The position numbers and the translations under genes are program-made. A stretch of 64,000 nucleotides of DNA from positions 1 through 64,000 of the forward strand of contig NZ_SOGJ01000028.1 of NCBI RefSeq assembly GCF_004402375.1, written 5' to 3'. The DNA is from Cryobacterium breve. GTDB taxonomy: Bacteria > Actinomycetota > Actinomycetes > Actinomycetales > Microbacteriaceae. Within the stretch, counting starts at the first letter, position 1. Every line of letters begins with the position of its first letter. A model generated the notes under the pieces. The model saw nothing but the letters and a program-made list of their open reading frames with translations, made no database searches and was not told where the DNA came from. Shown here one piece after another: positions 35,410 through 43,585 of this stretch.

Positions 35410-35892
35410 TCAGGACTGCGAGCGGTGGTGCTCGTTGAGAACCTCGACGATCAGGTCGTGATCGTCGCGCTGGGGCAGCCCGGAGACCCCGGCCACGCCG
35501 ATGAGTGAGCCGCGCACGCGCAGCGGGAAAGCACCGCCGTGCGCGGCGTGCGTGCCCGGGTCGAGATTCGACTCGGTGCGGAAGTCGCGTGAGTTCGCCC
35601 GAAATCGCGTGCCCACGGCGAAGGACGAGCTGGCGAAGCGCCGCACCACTCGGAACTTGTTCTCGAGCCACGCGTCGTTGTCGGCGCAGGCGCCCGGCAG
35701 TGCCGCGTGGAAGACGCGTTGGTCGCCGAACATGATCGAGATGGCGATCGGATGTCGGCGAAGGTTTCCCAGTTCCACCAGCCGGGAGCCGACGGCCCAG
35801 GCGTCGCCCACGTCGAAGGAGTCGAATTGGATGAGCCGTTCCTGCTCCAGAAGCAGCGGAAGGAGGGCAGCAGCCTCGGAGGCGTCGGTCAT
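35410..35892 (-). CDS. UPF0303 family protein (heme-degrading-domain/DUF336 fold)
   Basis: The protein has 160 residues from ATG 35892, behind GGAAAGG; the longer frame adds an Arg-rich tail that is unlikely. The middle contains SFDVGDAWAVGSRLVELG and HPIAISIMFGDQRVFHAALPG. The end has HGGAFPLRVRGSLIGVAGVSGLPQRDDHDLI, the block shared by the UPF0303/HbpS-GlcG-like fold. Length matches the family. Some relatives bind heme or act as chaperone-like factors; the function here is unproven. Confidence 0.85.
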   Translation of the reverse strand: MTDASEAAALLPLLLEQERLIQFDSFDVGDAWAVGSRLVELGNLRRHPIAISIMFGDQRVFHAALPGACADNDAWLENKFRVVRRFASSSFAVGTRFRANSRDFRTESNLDPGTHAAHGGAFPLRVRGSLIGVAGVSGLPQRDDHDLIVEVLNEHHRSQS

Positions 35893-36444
35893 CACAGGCC
35901 TTTCCGGTCGGGACAGTCGTCTGAAACGGGTGGAGCGTCTGCACACGTGCCGGAACGCCCGGCAGCCAGTCTTTCACTCCGGCGCTCCGTTGGCGTTCGG
36001 TCGCCACGTCATGGATTGCAGTGGTCGCACCATGCTGGGTCGGCCTGGGAATGATTTCGCGGTGTCCGGGTTTGGTGAGTGCACCTGCCGCAGCCCTGGA
36101 CATCGGCTGCGACGGCCTGGGTTGCCGATCCGCAGGTGGATCAGGGCAGGTCGGGTTCGACGTTGATGTGGCCAAATCCTGGCGCCCGGGAGTGCGGTCA
36201 CTCTATTGCACGTCGCTGGGCCATTTTCTCGCAGAGTGCGTGGATGGCTGCGGCGCGGGACGGTGCCCTGTGGGCACGGTAGTCCGGAAGGATCACAACG
36301 GAGTGGTGCTGATTCAGAAGCGCGTCAGCGGTGTCGCCGAGGACCTCGAGTTGCGTGATGTCTTTGTGGGCGGTCGTTCTGTGAGCTCTGCAGGATCACT
36401 CCTTGGCCCGGCAAGCCGATAGCTGACGCGCACGCGCGGGCTGG
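35893..36444. other. Gene-poor gap with one coding-like minus-strand fragment
   Basis: No intact gene is supported. On the minus strand, an open stretch from 36395 down to the stop at 36198 reads coherently (ITQLEVLGDTADALLNQHHS, VVILPDYRAHRAPSRAAAIH, ALCEKMAQRRAIE) with protein-like composition, but it lacks a start codon and I cannot name the family. It may be the 3' remnant of a lost gene at the end of the dab operon. The rest shows nothing. Confidence 0.4.
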
Positions 36445-36768
36445 TCACCGGAAATAGTCGGGCCTGGATACGTAGGTGTCGGAGACGAACATGACACCAC
36501 TGGAGGTGCTGAGAAGTTCTTGGACGGCGTCGATCAGTTCGCCGGCGTTGTTGGGCGGGAGGACGGTGATGAGCATGGTGAGGGTGTCGTATTCATTGAA
36601 GAGTAAAGCCCCGGAGTGTTGGCCGTGATGTCCGATTCCGGATACCCCTGACACGGACGTGTAGCCGGTGGCACCGGCGGAGGTGATCAGGTCGCGGATT
36701 GCCGGGGCGTCTCGGGCGGGCACGACAACCTCCAGCCGTGTCATTTGGGTCAGGTTGTTCATGGTCAT
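36445..36768 (-). CDS. PII-like signalling protein of the dab operon
   Basis: The protein has 107 residues. It starts with the ferredoxin-like strand LEVVVPARDAPAIRDLI, continues with TGYTSVSGVSGIGHHG in place of the PII T-loop, and ends with ELIDAVQELLSTSSGVMFVS. The uridylylation Tyr motif of GlnB is absent. PII-like proteins next to DabA/DUF2309 genes are recurrent and are thought to sense a nucleotide or bicarbonate state. Its ATG overlaps the dabA stop (ATGA at 36765-36768); a second ATG at 36762 is better spaced from AAAGGA. It probably tunes DabAB activity, by inference. Confidence 0.78.
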   Translation of the reverse strand: MTMNNLTQMTRLEVVVPARDAPAIRDLITSAGATGYTSVSGVSGIGHHGQHSGALLFNEYDTLTMLITVLPPNNAGELIDAVQELLSTSSGVMFVSDTYVSRPDYFR

Positions 36769-39194
36769 GTTCCTTTCAGCGCGGTGGGGGCGGCCGTCCA
36801 GCCGTACGGGGTGTATCGGTGCCAGGGGGCTGCGGAGTCGTTGCGTGCGGTGAGGGTGATCCAGCTGTTGTCGAGCAGGTTGCGGAGCACCTGGTTGCGG
36901 GAGACGATGCGGCCGATGCTGTCCAAGGGCGCTTGGATGATGACGGTCAGGCGCATGGGTTCGTGGAACAGTTGGTCGCCCAGGCCGACGGATTGCCAGG
37001 GCAGGCCGCGGCGCAGGTCGCCGGTGTGGCCGGCGAGAACTCCGATGGTGCCGACGGCATTGTGGATGGTTTTGGTTCCGGCGCCGAGGGTGGCGGGGTT
37101 GAGGGCGGAGAAGTAGTACTGGTGGTTGATCCACTGGGCGACCACCAAGGGCGCGGTCATGATCGTTTCCAATGCGGCACCGTCCAGGTCCAACTCAGTT
37201 TGGTAGGAGTGGAGGAACACGCGCCGGTCCAGGTTGACGCCGCGGGTCATCCGACGCGGTCCGATGACCATGGCGGCGTTTCCGGCAAGCCCCAGCTCGG
37301 GATACACCTCCGCCCAGTCGTGGGCGCGCCTCTGGACTCGGGAGGGGGAGTGCGGGGATGCTCCGGGCAGGTCCTGGGCGCGTTCTCTGATCAGTATCTC
37401 GGCGGCTGTGTGCTGGGCTCGGTTGAAGGTGTGCACCGCATCGACGTGGCTCTGCGGGATGAGGTGCTGGTCCAGGAGTGTGACGGCGTCGGTGACGGTG
37501 TTGTGCTCGGCTGCGATGAAGAAGCTGTCGGAGGGGATGTCGATACCGCGTGCCGCCAGGAGGACTCGCACGTCGGGGGCGTTGAAGATGGCGGCCGAGG
37601 CGCGGGCGTTGGCCGCTCCAGGGTTGCCGCCGCAGGCACCGCAATCCAACGCTGACTGGTACAGGTTGTTCATCGACTCGGACGCGTGGCCGGCGAGCAC
37701 GACCAGCGGGGCGAACTGGGTGATGCCCATCATCCGCACCGCAGTTTCAGCCATCGCGGCCCGCTCCTCCAGTGTGAACGCGTCGGCGACTGTGACGTTG
37801 CTCGGGAGTGTGGCCGTCGCCGGGGTCAGGAATCGGTGGATTCGTGCCTGCAGTGTGGGGGTCAGGGTGCGCAGCACGCTGATGGCGCCGAACAGCCAAC
37901 CGGATACCTCCGCGAAGGCGAATGGTGTCACCGTGCCGGAGTCGGCACGGTGGGTCGACCGCCGGAGCGCGTCGCGGGCGCGACCGCGCATGGTGTGGTT
38001 TTCAGCCTGCGCTGAGTGGGTTGGGTGCTCGGTGAGGTGGTGCCGGGCAGTCAGGAGGGCCGGCAACGAATTGATGGCTCCTCGGGCTTTGTACCGGGAG
38101 AACCGCACGGGGACGCCGAAGAATCCGGCGAACCCGAACGTCTCCACTTCGGGGAGGACCTCGACGTGACGCCGCATTCCTTCGGACCGAGGGTCAATAC
38201 ACATCACCAGTTGCAGTTGGGGACGAGGGGTGAAGGGATCGGTGTCCCTGAGGCCGTCCACCAGGGCGGCGCGGTAGTGCAGTTCGTAGGCCTGCTGCCA
38301 GGTCAACGCGTGGTCGGGCACCGGATGGGTTGCCAAGATCCGGCTCACCGCCGCGATGTCGTCCCGGTCTGCTCGGCCGCCGCCGATCGACCGGGCAACG
38401 TGCTCGGCTCTGTGCCAGAGGGCCGGTGGGGTCACGTCGGCTTGGGTGGGTCCGGGGGGTGCAGTGAGACGGGTCAGGCCGAGGAGGGCTCGGAGGGTCA
38501 ATCTCACGCCCAGATAGGAGAGCAGGTCGATGTCCCCAATCCTTTCGGCCCGCCACTTGATGTGGCCGACCCAGCCCGGCAGATGGTGGAGCTCGCTTCG
38601 GAGCGTCTCCGTCACCGCGTCCGCCGGGACTCCGAGTTTGACCAGCGCCCACGCCAGTGCGGCGTCGGGCTCGACGGGCAGTTCGGCCACCGTCCGGCGC
38701 ACCGTTCGGGGGAGTGACGGGTCTCTGCGGGCCAGGGTTCGCCAGGCCTGGTAGAAGCCGTGCTGCTTGTGGGGCATCGCCCAGAGCGGGTCAGGGTTCA
38801 GATAGGACGACACCCAGATGGCCAGGTACTCGTCCAGCCAAGGCGCGGTAGGTGCAGCTGCCACGGGGGAGGTCCACGGCGTGATCCTCATGTCCAGGAT
38901 CGCCACGCTCACCGCGGACACGCTTTTCCCGCCGATGGTGAGTTGCCCGGCGAGTTCCGGGACACGCTCGGCCAAGGCTGCTTCGAGGTCGGTGTCGACG
39001 ATGCGGCCACGGTCGGCGTCGGCGAGGTAGGCGTCCCGGGATCGGGCGAGGACCACGCCCGGGGCGGCGGCGGTCTCGAATGGGCGAGGTTCGTGGCCGG
39101 CAAGAGGGTTCACGGCGATGAAGGACTCCATCGGCCAGGACGGCACAATGTCGTGGGCGGCTGTGGCCACCTGGGCGCGAAGAATCAAATTCAT
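36765..39194 (-). CDS. dabA: DabA, inorganic-carbon transporter catalytic subunit (DUF2309)
   Basis: The protein has 809 residues. The beta-carbonic-anhydrase-like zinc site is complete: Cys332 and Asp334 in MCIDPRSEG, His503 in LAGHASESM, and Cys518 in LDCGACGG. These correspond in order and spacing to Cys351, Asp353, His524 and Cys539 of the characterised Halothiobacillus DabA. The protein is shorter than that enzyme (about 1,046 residues). DabA hydrates CO2 to bicarbonate vectorially, powered by ion flow through DabB. It overlaps dabB upstream (ATGA at 39191-39194) and the PII-like gene downstream. It is cytoplasmic and membrane-associated, without a signal peptide. Confidence 0.93.
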   Translation of the reverse strand: MNLILRAQVATAAHDIVPSWPMESFIAVNPLAGHEPRPFETAAAPGVVLARSRDAYLADADRGRIVDTDLEAALAERVPELAGQLTIGGKSVSAVSVAILDMRITPWTSPVAAAPTAPWLDEYLAIWVSSYLNPDPLWAMPHKQHGFYQAWRTLARRDPSLPRTVRRTVAELPVEPDAALAWALVKLGVPADAVTETLRSELHHLPGWVGHIKWRAERIGDIDLLSYLGVRLTLRALLGLTRLTAPPGPTQADVTPPALWHRAEHVARSIGGGRADRDDIAAVSRILATHPVPDHALTWQQAYELHYRAALVDGLRDTDPFTPRPQLQLVMCIDPRSEGMRRHVEVLPEVETFGFAGFFGVPVRFSRYKARGAINSLPALLTARHHLTEHPTHSAQAENHTMRGRARDALRRSTHRADSGTVTPFAFAEVSGWLFGAISVLRTLTPTLQARIHRFLTPATATLPSNVTVADAFTLEERAAMAETAVRMMGITQFAPLVVLAGHASESMNNLYQSALDCGACGGNPGAANARASAAIFNAPDVRVLLAARGIDIPSDSFFIAAEHNTVTDAVTLLDQHLIPQSHVDAVHTFNRAQHTAAEILIRERAQDLPGASPHSPSRVQRRAHDWAEVYPELGLAGNAAMVIGPRRMTRGVNLDRRVFLHSYQTELDLDGAALETIMTAPLVVAQWINHQYYFSALNPATLGAGTKTIHNAVGTIGVLAGHTGDLRRGLPWQSVGLGDQLFHEPMRLTVIIQAPLDSIGRIVSRNQVLRNLLDNSWITLTARNDSAAPWHRYTPYGWTAAPTALKGT

Positions 39195-40753
39195 GACGGC
39201 ACTCCTGTGGTCGCTGACGAGTGGGGGACAGCCGGCGGGCGGGGAAGAGCCGGACGGCGGGGGAGGGCGGCCGTCACGGTCCTGGTGTAGACGTGGTCAC
39301 GCAGGTGTGCGAGCTGGTGCGGGTTGCGGGAGAGCAGTTGGACCACGATCAGGCCGCCGGCGGGCAATGCCATAAGCCAGGCGGGAGCGCCGTTGATAGT
39401 GGTCTCGGCTTCCAAGGCCGCCGTGAAGATCTGCAGGAGGGCCACGTATCCGAACATCAGCACCACGACTGATGCCGTGCCGCCGAGGAGCGTTCGGAGC
39501 GAGAAATCGGTGCTCAGTGCTGTGCCCAGAGCGACGCTGGCGGTCACGGAAACGAACGCAAGCAGAGCAGTACTGGCCGTTGACACGGTGGGGGAGAACG
39601 CCCATTCGGCTGCCGCCAGCGCCGCCGATGGCACCAGCACCGACAGGGTCACGGCTGCAGCGAGTGTGAACGGCGAGCGGATCCCTCGAGTTGGAAGGTC
39701 CCTGTCGACGGCATGCTGGCGCACCCCCATTCCGGCCCCGAGGAAGAGGGTGGATTTGAACAGGGAGTGAGCGACCAGATGGAAGAGTGCGGCCGCGAAC
39801 ACACCCAGACCGCAGGCCATGATCATGAACCCCATTTGCGCCATCGTCGAGAAGACCAACCGCCCCTTCACATCCGGCCGGGCCAGGCGCACCGCCGACG
39901 CGTAGACCAGGGTCACGGCACCGGCCACGAATACCCCGATCATGACTGCCTGGTGCGGCGCGATGGCCGGAGCGAATCGGATCAGCAGAATCGCACCGGC
40001 ATTGACAACGCCGGCGTGCATCAGCGCGGACACCGGCGTGGGCGCCGCCAACGTGAACGGCAACCAGTCCTGGAAGGGGATCTGGCTTGAGCGAGCTAAC
40101 GCCGAGACCACGAGCAGCGCGGCGCAGGTCAATTGAAGCGGCAGCGGCAACGACTCCGCGACCTCACCAAGCTGATCCAGTGGAAGGTCTCCTTTGGCGG
40201 TGACCAGCAAGATGGTGACAGATACCAGGAAGGCAGTGTCAGCGATCATGAACCGGGATCCGGTGCGCCGGATCCCGTCGCGGGCCTGTGCCAGCGGACG
40301 ATAGGTTGCCAGGAGCGCCACGAGAGCCGCCCCTGCCCCGAGCCAGGCCACGGTGAACAGGGCAACCGACCCGGCGCACACCAGCAACACCGTGAAACCC
40401 GTGAGCAGGTTGGCTGCGACGATGAACCAGACCTGTCGACGATCACCCCGTAGGTATCGAATCGCGAAGACCTGGATCAGCGCACTGAGCCCCAGCACCA
40501 GCACCGACAAGGTCAAGGCCACGGCATCCAGGCGCACGGAGGTGGACCCCACCACCACCTGCGCGCTCCGATGCGGCGCGCCAACGGATGCGATCGCGAC
40601 AGCGACAGTCGCGGCGAACCCAAACCCGACCACGGTCGCTGCCAGTCGGGCAGCCCTGTCCCCGCTCGCTCCCGACCAGCCGAGGAGCAGGGTGAAGAGC
40701 CCCGCGATCCATGGGGTCAGGGTCACACCACCCACAACAAGCCAATCAGACAT
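39191..40753 (-). CDS. dabB: DabB, NuoL/MrpA-like proton-conducting membrane subunit
   Basis: The protein has 520 residues with about 13-14 helices. The antiporter-like core SQIPFQDWLPFTLAAPTPVS then ALMHAGVVNAGAILLIRF is the hallmark of NuoL-type proton channels, and MGFMIMACGLG with HLVAHSLFKSTLFL follows. Start ATG 40753 was chosen for the AGAGG box 5-9 nt upstream; a GTG at 40771 is an alternative. In the DAB system it supplies cation flux that drives CO2 hydration by DabA. It is first gene of the operon dabB-dabA-PII-like; no respiratory complex I genes are adjacent. Confidence 0.92.
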   Translation of the reverse strand: MSDWLVVGGVTLTPWIAGLFTLLLGWSGASGDRAARLAATVVGFGFAATVAVAIASVGAPHRSAQVVVGSTSVRLDAVALTLSVLVLGLSALIQVFAIRYLRGDRRQVWFIVAANLLTGFTVLLVCAGSVALFTVAWLGAGAALVALLATYRPLAQARDGIRRTGSRFMIADTAFLVSVTILLVTAKGDLPLDQLGEVAESLPLPLQLTCAALLVVSALARSSQIPFQDWLPFTLAAPTPVSALMHAGVVNAGAILLIRFAPAIAPHQAVMIGVFVAGAVTLVYASAVRLARPDVKGRLVFSTMAQMGFMIMACGLGVFAAALFHLVAHSLFKSTLFLGAGMGVRQHAVDRDLPTRGIRSPFTLAAAVTLSVLVPSAALAAAEWAFSPTVSTASTALLAFVSVTASVALGTALSTDFSLRTLLGGTASVVVLMFGYVALLQIFTAALEAETTINGAPAWLMALPAGGLIVVQLLSRNPHQLAHLRDHVYTRTVTAALPRRPALPRPPAVPHSSATTGVPS

Positions 40754-40796
40754 CGGCACCTCTCGAAGCACGACTTACAAAACAGGAAAAACATAG

Positions 40797-40807
40797 CACA
40801 TGTTGTG
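40797..40807. promoter_or_regulatory. Operator candidate between dabB and its divergent regulator
   Basis: CACATGTTGTG (arms CACA and TGTG around TGT) lies in an AT-rich pocket 44 nt upstream of dabB and 53 nt upstream of the winged-helix gene. On the minus strand TATGTT could serve as a -10 box. The pocket is the only low-GC stretch nearby and is the likely control region for both. Confidence 0.4.
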
Positions 40808-40859
40808 TGTCGGGAATCGAGTGTAGAGAAAAAATCATCTGGTGGGAGATAATCGGAAG

Positions 40860-41144
40860 ATGGCGACCTGGACGTTTCTGACCAACCACGCCCACGTGTT
40901 GTTGTGCGTGGCGGACAACCCGAACGTCCGGCTACGCGACGTCGCCGTTCAGGTCGGCATCACTGAGCGCGCGGCGCAACGCATCGTCTCCGAGCTGGAG
41001 GAGGCAGGCTACCTGAACCGCGAACGCGAAGGTCGACGTAACACGTACCGGCTCAACACCGCGATGCCACTTCGGCACCCGTTGGATCGCGATCATCGCA
41101 TCGGGGAGCTCCTTTCCGCCTTCGCCAACCCCCACAGCCAGTGA
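40860..41144 (+). CDS. Winged-helix transcriptional regulator, divergent to the dab operon
   Basis: The protein has 94 residues from ATG 40860, which follows GGGAG and gives the expected N-terminus MATWTFLTNHAHVLLCVA. The helix-turn-helix reads VRLRDVAVQVGITERAAQRI with wing EEAGYLNREREGRRNTYRL, a MarR/ArsR-like single wHTH. The tail PLRHPLDRDHRIGELLSAF is conserved in many small actinobacterial regulators. No ligand domain is present. Its divergent position to dabB suggests local control of inorganic-carbon uptake. Confidence 0.78.
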   Translation: MATWTFLTNHAHVLLCVADNPNVRLRDVAVQVGITERAAQRIVSELEEAGYLNREREGRRNTYRLNTAMPLRHPLDRDHRIGELLSAFANPHSQ

Positions 41145-41294: not shown

Positions 41295-41768
41295 ATGGCA
41301 CACATCGAAATTTTCGAACCGGGACTCTGCTGCGGCACGGGCATCTGCGGAGTCGACGTCGACCAGGCGCTGGTCACCTTCTCTGCCGACCTCGATTTCG
41401 CCCGCACGAACGGCGGCGACGTCGCCCGGTTCAACCTGGCCCAGGAGCCGCTCGCGTTCGTGGAGAACGAGGTGGCCCGCCAGTTCCTGCACACCGTCGG
41501 CCAGGAGGGCCTGCCGGTCACGCTCGTGGGCGGAGCCACCGTGCTCACCGGCCGTTACCCCACCCGGGCCGAGCTCGCGAGCTGGACCGGATCACCGTCT
41601 GTCGACACCGCCGCTGGGGCTGCAACCGACTCCGGAGCGGCCAGTCACCTCGCGGCCGTGCAGCCCGAGGGTTCGCTTCAGCTGCTCGCCATGGCGTCGG
41701 TTACACCGGCTGCGGGCGCGGAGGCCAGTGCCGAAGCCGGTTGCTGCGGCACCGGCGGCTGCTGCTAG
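41295..41768 (+). CDS. arsD: ArsD arsenical metallochaperone
   Basis: The protein has 157 residues. The N-terminus IEIFEPGLCCGTGICGVDVD has the arsenite-binding cysteines 12, 13 and 18 in the canonical spacing. NGGDVARFNLAQEPLAFVEN and LPVTLVGGATVLTGRYPTR are conserved ArsD blocks. After an Ala/Ser linker of about 35 residues, a second cysteine group, CCGTGGCC, ends the protein, resembling the extra Cys pairs of long ArsD forms. It delivers As(III)/Sb(III) to ArsA. arsA follows after 8 nt. Confidence 0.93.
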   Translation: MAHIEIFEPGLCCGTGICGVDVDQALVTFSADLDFARTNGGDVARFNLAQEPLAFVENEVARQFLHTVGQEGLPVTLVGGATVLTGRYPTRAELASWTGSPSVDTAAGAATDSGAASHLAAVQPEGSLQLLAMASVTPAAGAEASAEAGCCGTGGCC

Positions 41769-41776
41769 GGCCGATC

Positions 41777-43585
41777 ATGTCGACCCTGCGCTTCCTCGCC
41801 GACGCCCCGCGCTTCCTCTTCTTCACCGGCAAGGGCGGGGTCGGCAAGACCTCCATCGCGTGCGCGAGCGCGGTTCGCCTGGCCGAGGCCGGGGCATCCG
41901 TGCTGCTGGTCAGCACAGATCCGGCTTCCAATGTGGGTCAAGTCTTCGGGGTGAGCATCGGCAACACGGTCACCCCGATCGCGGCGGTTCCCGGTCTGTG
42001 GGCTCTCGAGATCGACCCAGAGCAGGCGGCCGAACAGTACCGCGAACGCATCGTCGGCCCGGTGCGCGGCCTGCTGCCGCCCGCCGAGGTGGCCACGATC
42101 GAGGAGCAGCTCTCGGGCGCCTGCACCACCGAGATCGCCTCCTTCAATGAGTTCACCGACCTTTTGACGGATGCCGCCTGGACGGCCGCGTACGACCACA
42201 TCCTGTTCGACACGGCCCCCACCGGGCACACCATCCGACTGCTGCAACTGCCTGGGTCGTGGACCGACTTCCTCACCGAGGGCACGGGCGACGCGTCCTG
42301 CCTCGGGCCGCTCTCCGGCCTCGAGAAGCAGCGCGCCGTCTACGCCGACGCCGTGGCGGCGCTCGCCGACCCTGCGCGAACGCGGCTGGTGCTGGTCGCC
42401 CGCGCCCAGAACGGCGCACTGCGCGAGGCGGCCCGCACCCAGGCCGAACTGTCCGCCATCGGAATGGAGCGGCAGTACCTGGTGGTCAACGGCATCCTGC
42501 CGGCCGGCCCGGGCACGGCCACGCCTGCCGATGCCGCGGCCGACCCACTCTTCGCCGCCATCCGGGCGCGGGAGCAGAAGGCGCTCGCCGCGATGCCCGA
42601 GGGGCTTCGCTCGGCGCCCACCGACCACGTCGAGCTGAAAAGCGCCAACATGGTCGGCCTCTTCGCACTCCGCAGTCTGCTCGAGCCGGAGGTCGTCCCG
42701 ACGCCGGTCGCCGTCGTCGTCGACGCGGTCGTGCCGGGGGCCCCGCTCTCGGCTCTCATTGACGAGATCGAGGCCGGCGGTCACGGCCTGGTGATGCTGA
42801 TGGGCAAGGGCGGCGTGGGCAAGACCACCCTCGCGGCGGCCATCGCCGTCAGCCTCGCCGAACGTGGCCTGCCCGTGCACCTCACCACCACCGACCCGGC
42901 CGCGCACCTCGACGACACCCTGGCCGGCGGTCTGCCGCACCTGACCGTTTCCCGGATCGACCCGGCCGTCGAAATCGCCGCCTACACCGAGCGGGTCATG
43001 AGCACGAAGGGCGCGCAGCTGGACGAGCAGGGCCAAGCCATGCTCCGCGAGGACCTGCGGTCGCCGTGCACCGAGGAGATCGCCGTCTTCCAGGCCTTCT
43101 CCCGCGTGAGCCGGGAGGCGAGGAACACCTTCGTCGTGATGGACACCGCGCCAACGGGCCACACCCTGCTGCTGCTGGATGCGACCGGGTCGTACCACCG
43201 CGAGGTCACCAGGCAGTTGGGTGGCGGCATCCGCCTGACGACGCCGATGATGCGGCTGCAGGACCCGAAGCAGACGAAAGTGATCCTGGTCACCCTCGCC
43301 GAGACAACGCCTGTGCTCGAGGCCGCGGAGCTGCAGGCCGACCTGGAGCGGGCCGGGATCACGCCGTGGGCGTGGATCGTGAACAACTCCATCGCTGCGG
43401 CGGCGCCGACCAGCCCGCTGCTGCTCGCGCGGGCCCGGAATGAGCTCATCGAGCTCGAGCATGTGCACGAGAAGCGCGCCCCGCGGCTCGCGGTGGTGCC
43501 GCTGCTGGCGGAGGAGCCGGTCGGCATTCCCGCGCTGCTCGCGCTGGCCGCGGGGAGGCAGCCCGCGCCGGCATCCGTTCGCTAG
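41777..43585 (+). CDS. arsA: ArsA arsenite-translocating ATPase
   Basis: The protein has 602 residues from ATG 41777. It is a tandem duplication of a deviant Walker ATPase: TGKGGVGKTS near residue 16 and MGKGGVGKTT near 346. Each half is followed by a signal-transduction DTAPTGHT motif and a metal-site Cys region (LSGACTTEI and LRSPCTEEI). It normally energises the ArsB pump with ArsD as chaperone. No arsB, acr3, arsC or arsR lies beside it in this window, so the pump must be elsewhere. Length matches full two-domain ArsA. Confidence 0.95.
   Translation: MSTLRFLADAPRFLFFTGKGGVGKTSIACASAVRLAEAGASVLLVSTDPASNVGQVFGVSIGNTVTPIAAVPGLWALEIDPEQAAEQYRERIVGPVRGLLPPAEVATIEEQLSGACTTEIASFNEFTDLLTDAAWTAAYDHILFDTAPTGHTIRLLQLPGSWTDFLTEGTGDASCLGPLSGLEKQRAVYADAVAALADPARTRLVLVARAQNGALREAARTQAELSAIGMERQYLVVNGILPAGPGTATPADAAADPLFAAIRAREQKALAAMPEGLRSAPTDHVELKSANMVGLFALRSLLEPEVVPTPVAVVVDAVVPGAPLSALIDEIEAGGHGLVMLMGKGGVGKTTLAAAIAVSLAERGLPVHLTTTDPAAHLDDTLAGGLPHLTVSRIDPAVEIAAYTERVMSTKGAQLDEQGQAMLREDLRSPCTEEIAVFQAFSRVSREARNTFVVMDTAPTGHTLLLLDATGSYHREVTRQLGGGIRLTTPMMRLQDPKQTKVILVTLAETTPVLEAAELQADLERAGITPWAWIVNNSIAAAAPTSPLLLARARNELIELEHVHEKRAPRLAVVPLLAEEPVGIPALLALAAGRQPAPASVR

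Follow-up and report, generated by a model that had tools for sequence, protein, structure and literature searches.

The purified DAB2 complex (DabA2B2; PDB 9rd0) from Halothiobacillus neapolitanus shows no CO2 hydration without a membrane potential, and its zinc ligands, an Asp-Arg dyad, finger Glu444 and a proton path are important for growth at low CO2 (PMC13144422). The same 2026 structure paper names regulation of DAB against futile cycling as a key question; the term PII is not found in its main text (PMC13144422). DAB homologues also occur in heterotrophs, among them MpsAB of Staphylococcus aureus, and have already been reported from Actinobacteria (PMC6689103); the term PII does not occur in that report on MpsAB. 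A 2021 review sees evidence that a regulatory protein controls the uptake of bicarbonate for SbtA alone (PMC8438413); there, the T-loop of the PII-like SbtB partly blocks the transporter (PMC8352866). We recognized no PII or winged-helix regulator of DAB in the literature searched, mostly by title and abstract opening. DAB in a heterotroph is thus known, and the new part of the locus described here is its control module, a PII-like gene together with a divergent regulator gene.

In the window, which is the whole 64,000-nucleotide stretch of Cryobacterium DNA that was analysed, the segment 36445-41144 holds dabB, dabA and a PII-like gene on one strand and a winged-helix gene on the other (Table 1). 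Both ATGA overlaps pointed out in the preliminary description can be read in the sequence, and the winged-helix gene does diverge across an AT-rich pocket, with 38.6% GC at 40772-40841 against 68.1% for the window. A divergent regulator-like gene beside the pump is conserved in 11 of 11 other loci of the genus. Indeed, all 11 of these DabA-bearing loci keep the whole four-gene order, which is more than chance retention given that DabA identity falls to 54%; within the genus, identities range over 71-97% for PII, 78-97% for the winged-helix protein and 54-90% for DabA. The search for this order in other actinobacteria, proposed earlier, finds it again in 27 of the 41 loci testable for both regulators. 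A recurring order that joins a sensor-like and a switch-like gene to the pump suggests that the pump likely has its own two-level control. A single island of DAB and ars genes was considered and rejected, ars neighbours being present in only 2 of the 11 other genus loci.

Table 1. Features of the DAB cassette and of the intergenic region in the Cryobacterium window.
Feature	Position	Strand	Remarks
CPII-type PII-like gene	36445..36768	-	107 aa; ATGA overlap with dabA
dabA	36765..39194	-	809 aa; zinc, beta-CA-like subunit; ATGA overlap with dabB
dabB	39191..40771	-	start GTG 40771 or internal ATG 40753; NuoL/Mrp-like membrane subunit
Candidate operator, conserved 26-bp block	40779..40804	-	AACATGTGCTATGTTTTTCCTGTTTT on the - strand; between the divergent genes
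Small winged-helix regulator-like gene	40842..41144	+	100 aa from GTG 40842; 94 aa from ATG 40860

The pump is complete as far as its sequence can be read, as had been claimed: PF10070 and PF00361 subunits, zinc site and proton path are all present. DabA matches PF10070 at 724.5 bits and the solved DabA2 chain 9rd0_A at 3.9e-99. Its Cys332, Asp334, His503 and Cys518 align with Cys351, Asp353, His524 and Cys539 of DabA2, the zinc-site positions to which they had been assigned, and do not vary in any of the 96 DabA rows. The Asp-Arg dyad of DabA2 (D353, R355) corresponds to D334 and R336, and R336 too is the same in all 96. Finger Glu444 falls on E429 in the 97-row alignment, from which this assignment is taken; in that column 88 of 96 rows have Glu and 8 have Asp. 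In the pairwise and 13-row alignments it was paired with another position or faced a gap. All DabA residues mutated in the 2026 structure paper are retained, and the tunnel residues A376, F378 and P704 are likewise common to both systems. The statement that DabA is about 240 residues shorter does not stand, since the solved DabA2 has 870 residues in all and the gap to DabA is therefore at most 61. DabB, whose gene adjoins that of the PF10070 subunit, matches PF00361 at 114.9 bits, and its best solved chain is DabB2 (9rd0_B, 3.7e-38). All seven proton-path residues tested (S256, H260, K310, S316, H339, H343 and K347) are kept in every one of the 12 genus rows. Among the ion-pair residues D185 is kept, R182 is replaced by Met175 and K235 by Arg227; I151 of DabB2 is a Leu.

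The two systems nevertheless differ in several respects. Over the aligned parts DabA is 35% and DabB 31% identical to its DAB2 counterpart, the Cryobacterium cassette includes the PII-like and winged-helix genes, and its host has no RuBisCO match. The T2-gate residues Arg653 and Trp656 of DabA2 are Tyr631 and Leu634 in Cryobacterium DabA. Tyr at position 653 is found in 45 of 61 PII-positive DabA rows, 3 of 3 undecided rows and 0 of 32 PII-negative rows. We rejected a PII-linked DabA with a co-adapted bicarbonate gate, as the two traits agree in only 0.8 of 7 independent pairs; this loss over independent pairs means that the association is explained by descent.

The PII-like protein matches P-II (PF00543) at 71.2 bits and is the sole PF00543 match in the host genome; its start is supported by homologues that align from the same position, many of them with Met there. 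Canonical GlnB and GlnK are not its closest relatives. Profile searches give 7e-31 for CPII versus 3.7e-06 for the best GlnB-type chain, and Foldseek with the predicted fold finds CPII bound to ADP and bicarbonate (2.0e-12, TM 0.88, rmsd 1.6), SbtB among the matches being more distant (1.1e-06). The nearest solved relatives are thus the CPII structures, some of which contain ADP or AMP with bicarbonate according to their structure titles. With CPII of Thiomonas intermedia K12 (PDB 5d4l, 5d4n-p, 5drk, 5ds7) the protein shares 40 of 102 residues, the same predicted fold and the same Gly/His loop. Across 37 DAB-linked PIIs, 13 positions are invariant and 12 of these are identical in CPII. The preliminary description had taken the protein for a GlnB with a replaced loop, which is wrong: it belongs with CPII, and its Gly/His-rich loop is characteristic of this branch. 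The Thiomonas protein is reportedly called carboxysome-associated in the title of Wheatley 2016. Unlike it, the Cryobacterium gene, judged by the lack of a RuBisCO match in the genome, shows no association with carboxysome genes and sits with dabBA, and for this reason we call the protein CPII-type by descent and not a carboxysome-associated CPII. Its kinship with CPII makes a bicarbonate/adenylate sensor a good guess.

All 12 DAB carriers of the genus have PII, 11 of them without any other PF00543 match. Among 296 genomes of the class, dabA is present in 22 and the PII-like protein in 6, the host included. PII is absent from 9 of 49 testable actinobacterial DAB loci and, in other phyla, from 17 of 23. 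On the DabA tree, 8 changes between presence and absence of PII can be counted. DAB can therefore do without PII.

The winged-helix protein scores 28.6 bits against MarR_2 (cut-off 27), 26.3 against HTH_24 and 23.9 against MarR, under the 24.6 required. It differs from the short MarR-like proteins of MarR_2 and HTH_24 in having only 94-100 aa and a conserved start, WTFLTNHAHVL; typical MarR proteins are longer. AspA is its best profile match among solved chains (3.7e-05), and PcaV, SlyA and AspA are weak fold neighbours of a predicted model whose mean pLDDT is only 77. A divergent winged-helix gene accompanies 36 of 45 testable actinobacterial DAB loci and is absent from the other 9. Members of the family also adjoin Sbt_1, an unrelated bicarbonate transporter, in 5 of the 7 genomes that have both, representing five different families (two of these neighbours were confirmed by a Pfam check). 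A role as beta-CA regulator was rejected, relatives being divergent beside beta-CA only in G151 and G250, too few cases and from one genus.

The 26-bp block lies 54-56 nt from the winged-helix start and has 18-26 matches of 26 in 8 loci of other genera, compared with a best of 18 and a mean of 13.3 in 1000 shuffles. Its 23-bp core, with 3 mismatches allowed, occurs once each in 7 of 8 DAB genomes and in none of 28 others, and no further regulon sites for it were found in the 36 genomes searched. In more distant DAB loci the block is not recognizable, the best scores (11-18 of 26) being at or near the shuffled level. For other members of the winged-helix family we read a palindromic consensus, AATACNNGTATT, by eye from upstream sequences and then scored it on the same sequences, so that the frequencies are partly circular and only suggestive. 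At a score of at least 8 of 10 it is found at 14 of 39 distant and 4 of 10 close DAB-linked copies, 4 of 5 Sbt-linked, 0 of 2 CA-linked, 0 of 10 TerC-linked and 10 of 50 other copies; controls gave 0.5-6.6% (shuffles) and 0-6.7% (AT-rich). As a consensus for the window it was rejected: the best score there is 6 of 10, and none of the 15 Cryobacterium rows attains 8. The 26-bp block of the window is therefore at most a diverged form of it.

A pump that serves CO2 fixation was considered and rejected: the host has no RuBisCO match, and among 37 genomes of the genus only G010 exceeds the RuBisCO cut-off and G035 is sub-threshold, neither of them with a DabA match. Replacement of carbonic anhydrase was rejected as well, since a beta-carbonic anhydrase match is present in the host and in 37 of 37 genus genomes. 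The earlier proposal that the pump feeds carboxylases at low CO2 is weakened as a sole purpose by this ubiquity of beta-CA, by the lack of a DabA match in 25 of the 37 genomes and by the lack of a PEP carboxylase match in the host and in all 37; biotin-type carboxylases are kept as a putative sink for the bicarbonate.

We consider it probable that the locus forms a full DAB cassette with a predicted PMF-driven hydration of CO2 to bicarbonate, likely controlled both at the promoter and at the pump. CO2 would diffuse into the cell and be hydrated vectorially by DabA as protons pass DabB. The winged-helix protein may bind the 26-bp block between the promoters and would there probably act as a repressor that is relieved once bicarbonate runs short. 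The CPII-like protein would read adenylates and bicarbonate and stop pumping once there is enough bicarbonate or too little energy, as has been proposed for the action of SbtB on SbtA; that system is likewise a bicarbonate-accumulating one paired with a PII-like protein, although SbtA is unrelated to DabAB. Such control would limit a futile cycle, and would matter because the host carbonic anhydrase would revert pumped bicarbonate to CO2, draining the proton-motive force. In this the host differs from S. aureus, which has no carbonic anhydrase (PMC6689103, PMC8552792). The argument that carbonic anhydrase mitigates the benefit of MpsAB (PMC8552792) favours this futile-cycle logic, as does the beta-CA match in all 37 genus genomes. 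Its co-expression with MpsAB in staphylococci was of no benefit (PMC8552792), a result that we count against the mechanism. We count against it, too, the DAB loci that lack PII or the winged-helix gene, the distant loci in which the 26-bp block is not recognizable, the poor fit of the palindrome to the window, and the replaced T2-gate and ion-pair residues.

An ordinary DAB pump whose PII-like and winged-helix neighbours are passengers, or act elsewhere, for example in general carbon/nitrogen control, seems unlikely. DAB without PII is indeed common (16 of the 22 DabA-bearing class genomes), and the winged-helix family extends beyond DAB, with 58 of 72 other neighbourhoods lacking DAB, Sbt_1 and beta-CA. 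Against this, PII was always beside dabA in the 296 genomes and never away from it, the four-gene order is unbroken in the genus, both small proteins are better conserved there than DabA, and the single operator-like site per genome lies only at the DAB promoter in 7 of the 8 DAB genomes searched. We think it improbable, too, that DabAB is a cation-coupled bicarbonate importer and not a vectorial CO2 hydrase. Na+/bicarbonate cotransport has been proposed for MpsAB (PMC6689103; restated in PMC13144422), but DAB2 did not depend on sodium (PMC13144422), and every zinc and Asp-Arg residue of DAB2 has a counterpart here, as does its finger Glu. That the cassette primarily sets pH or PMF, with bicarbonate supply secondary, appears very unlikely: although a beta-carbonic anhydrase is present in the host in any case and TerC genes lie near winged-helix relatives in 11 of the 72 neighbourhoods, the palindrome is not enriched at TerC-linked copies, the winged-helix relatives adjoin Sbt_1, and among solved structures PII comes closest to a CPII with bound bicarbonate.

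Controlled vectorial hydration thus remains our preferred reading, and the locus offers a four-gene candidate for the regulation of DAB: the pump brings along a PII-type protein and a divergent regulator of its own, and the carbonic anhydrase of the host means that the futile cycle would be faced directly. More tentatively, and with doubt prevailing, the winged-helix family may be an actinobacterial inorganic-carbon switch, recruited as a shared regulator by two unrelated systems for bicarbonate accumulation, DAB and Sbt_1, and acting at related palindrome-like sites in both, with a CPII-type sensor gating DAB. If true, such a switch and sensor would form a complete transcription-plus-allostery module for CO2 homeostasis in bacteria without CO2 fixation.

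Genes of the DAB cassette and its surroundings, in window coordinates
Feature	Position	Strand	Match or remark
UvrA-like ATPase, 865 aa	31786-34383	-	UvrA DNA-binding domain match; probably a UvrA paralogue
HbpS-like haem-degrading-type protein	35410-35946	-	89 bits
PII-like gene, 107 aa	36768-36445	-	Pfam P-II 71.2 bits
dabA	39194-36765	-	Pfam DabA 724.5 bits
dabB	40771-39191	-	Pfam Proton_antipo_M 114.9 bits
Divergent gap	40772-40841		38.6% GC vs 68.1% GC for the window
Winged-helix gene, 94-100 aa	40842-41144	+	Pfam MarR_2 28.6 bits, cut-off 27
ArsD and double-domain ArsA	41295-43585	+	downstream of the winged-helix gene

The sequence leaves little doubt that this locus encodes a DAB pump. 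The top solved relatives of DabA and DabB are the two chains of DAB2, the DabA2B2 pump of Halothiobacillus neapolitanus (9rd0_A, 3.9e-99; 9rd0_B, 3.7e-38). The zinc and Asp-Arg residues mutated in the DAB2 structure paper (C351, D353, R355, H524 and C539; PMC13144422) align with C332, D334, R336, H503 and C518. These positions are unchanged in all 96 aligned DabA rows, which comprise 12 genus rows and 84 loci with more than 650 residues in one frame, drawn from 80 named and 8 unnamed loci with shorter frames excluded. Leu658, mutated without loss in the same paper (PMC13144422), corresponds to L636. The finger Glu444 corresponds to E429 in a 97-row alignment (88 Glu and 8 Asp in the column), unlike in two small alignments, where it is misplaced or faces a gap. 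DabB retains all seven proton-path residues tested; two ion-pair residues are changed (R182 to Met, K235 to Arg), as are two in DabA at the T2 bottleneck of the DAB2 paper (R653 to Tyr, W656 to Leu). The preliminary description made DabA about 240 residues shorter than Halothiobacillus DabA, which is wrong, the full solved chain having 870 residues. By homology, CO2 hydration would be driven by the proton-motive force.

From the dabB promoter the genes run dabB, dabA, PII-like, with ATGA overlaps at both junctions, and the winged-helix gene lies on the opposite strand. The Pfam match of the latter is weak, and its assignment is based mainly on conservation and position. This four-gene set, with its order, is repeated at all 11 other DAB loci of the genus. 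For a wider view we took the best 80 of at least 548 confirmed loci, a sample biased to near relatives, with phylum assigned from record titles and with three Cryobacterium loci, at least two from genomes also in the genus sample. Among these best 80, a PII gene directly after dabA was seen at 40/49 testable loci of actinobacteria and 6/23 from other phyla. For the divergent winged-helix gene the figures are 36/45 and 1/14, and the two genes occur together in 27 of the 41 actinobacterial loci where each could be tested. Of four further loci whose phylum is unclear, one has PII, and one of the three testable ones has the winged-helix gene. In the DabA tree, Cryobacterium is scattered among Aeromicrobium (a metagenome bin), Salinibacterium, Frigoribacterium and Subtercola, and well-supported branches require at least four label changes, so that the cassette has likely moved between actinobacteria. 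DabA relatives were found on 123 of 72,556 plasmid records, every one less than 60% identical. In one genome (G005) the cassette (L014) is on the smaller of two contigs (C2, 117,589 bases) and may thus be plasmid-borne. The ArsD/ArsA neighbour is present at only 2 of the 11 other genus loci.

Sequence and predicted fold identify the PII-like protein as CPII-type, after the PII-like protein of Thiomonas intermedia K12. A single-sequence search matched CPII (5d4n) at 1.5e-18, and a 37-row profile gave 7e-31 for CPII vs 3.7e-06 for the top GlnB-type chain. The predicted fold (mean pLDDT 87) matched "CPII bound to ADP and bicarbonate" in Foldseek (2.0e-12, TM 0.88, rmsd 1.6). Twelve of the 13 positions invariant among 37 DAB-linked PIIs are the same in CPII; the Gly/His-rich loop is therefore a trait of the CPII branch. 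Could the protein instead be the host's nitrogen regulator? It is the sole PF00543 match in the host genome, and an ordinary GlnB/GlnK seems absent from most species represented by the 37 Cryobacterium genomes, 31 of these genomes having no P-II match beyond the DAB-linked one and 20 none at all. The cassette type occurs in all 12 DAB carriers of the genus, 11 of them without any other P-II, and some P-II is present in 5 of the 25 genomes without DAB. Among 296 class genomes, dabA was found in 22 and the cassette-type PII in 6, adjoining dabA every time. It thus looks like a DAB accessory rather than a nitrogen regulator.

A beta-carbonic-anhydrase-like gene lies directly 3' of PII in 12 DAB operons, mostly of Mycobacteriaceae (L085:8815-9477, PF00484 71 bits; like places in L079, L083, L084, L086-L089, L091 and L092; and G061 (L059) and G268 (L060)). 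All 12 have lost the Arg of the C-x-D-x-R motif, and L088 the Asp too, with the Cys/His/Cys ligand positions retained, so they may be non-catalytic relatives.

The winged-helix protein likely acts at a conserved 26-bp block, 54-56 nt from its own start in the divergent gap. In the nearer DabA group, 18-26 of the 26 bases are matched in the 8 non-Cryobacterium loci where the winged-helix gene is divergent (Arthrobacter L071 lacks one at that position), and 1000 shuffled regions gave a top score of 18 and a mean of 13.3. The block cannot be recognised in DAB loci more distant than these, where the top scores are 11-18. Allowing 3 mismatches, a 23-bp core has one copy in 7 of 8 DAB genomes searched (all but G018) and none in 28 DAB-less genomes; a reversed control matched none.

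The winged-helix family extends beyond DAB, with 74 places in 63 of the 296 genomes. Of the other 73 places we examined 72 (G111 omitted), each with at most about 10 kb of surrounding sequence, some clipped by contig ends. These contained DabA/DabB relatives in 6, the unrelated bicarbonate transporter Sbt_1 in 5, beta-carbonic anhydrase in 3 (one about 4 kb off) and TerC in 11; 58 of the 72 had none of DAB, Sbt_1 or beta-carbonic anhydrase. Sbt_1 is matched in 18/296 genomes (17 above cut-off), 7 of which have the winged-helix family. In 5 of these 7, representing five different families, the two genes adjoin, about 25-940 bp apart; from genome size alone we estimate the chance of such adjacency at about 1 in 1000 for each genome. 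In a weakly resolved tree of 129 short rows, DAB-linked copies cluster (8 changes vs 15.4 shuffled), and strong branches require at least three changes, so the DAB link was gained or lost more than once. Two DAB loci (L072:3725-4377, Promicromonospora; L073:3100-3748, Tessaracoccus) have tandem winged-helix genes, the outer of which clusters with an Sbt_1-linked copy. TerC genes lie near family members at L162 (own genome, contig C28) and 10 other loci, and L176 has the row Sbt_1-wHTH-TerC.

Earlier work has already described DAB in heterotrophs and in Actinobacteria (PMC6689103). We found no description of a PII- and winged-helix-controlled DAB in the open-access literature, a scope outside which the 2019 DAB and 2016 CPII papers fall; this is no claim of absence from print. 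No RuBisCO large chain was matched in the genome of the host, a Cryobacterium, nor PEP carboxylase in the 37 Cryobacterium genomes. Beta-carbonic anhydrase is matched in 37/37 and DabA in 12/37, so the pump is an optional addition to carbonic anhydrase. For staphylococci, it has been argued that carbonic anhydrase together with MpsAB, the DAB homologue of Staphylococcus aureus, makes little sense unless the two are separated (PMC8552792), and futile cycling is named as a key question in the DAB2 structure paper (PMC13144422). We infer that the CPII-type protein likely gates the pump, its putative partner, via bicarbonate and adenylates as putative ligands. Such a gated pump would solve futile cycling with carbonic anhydrase.
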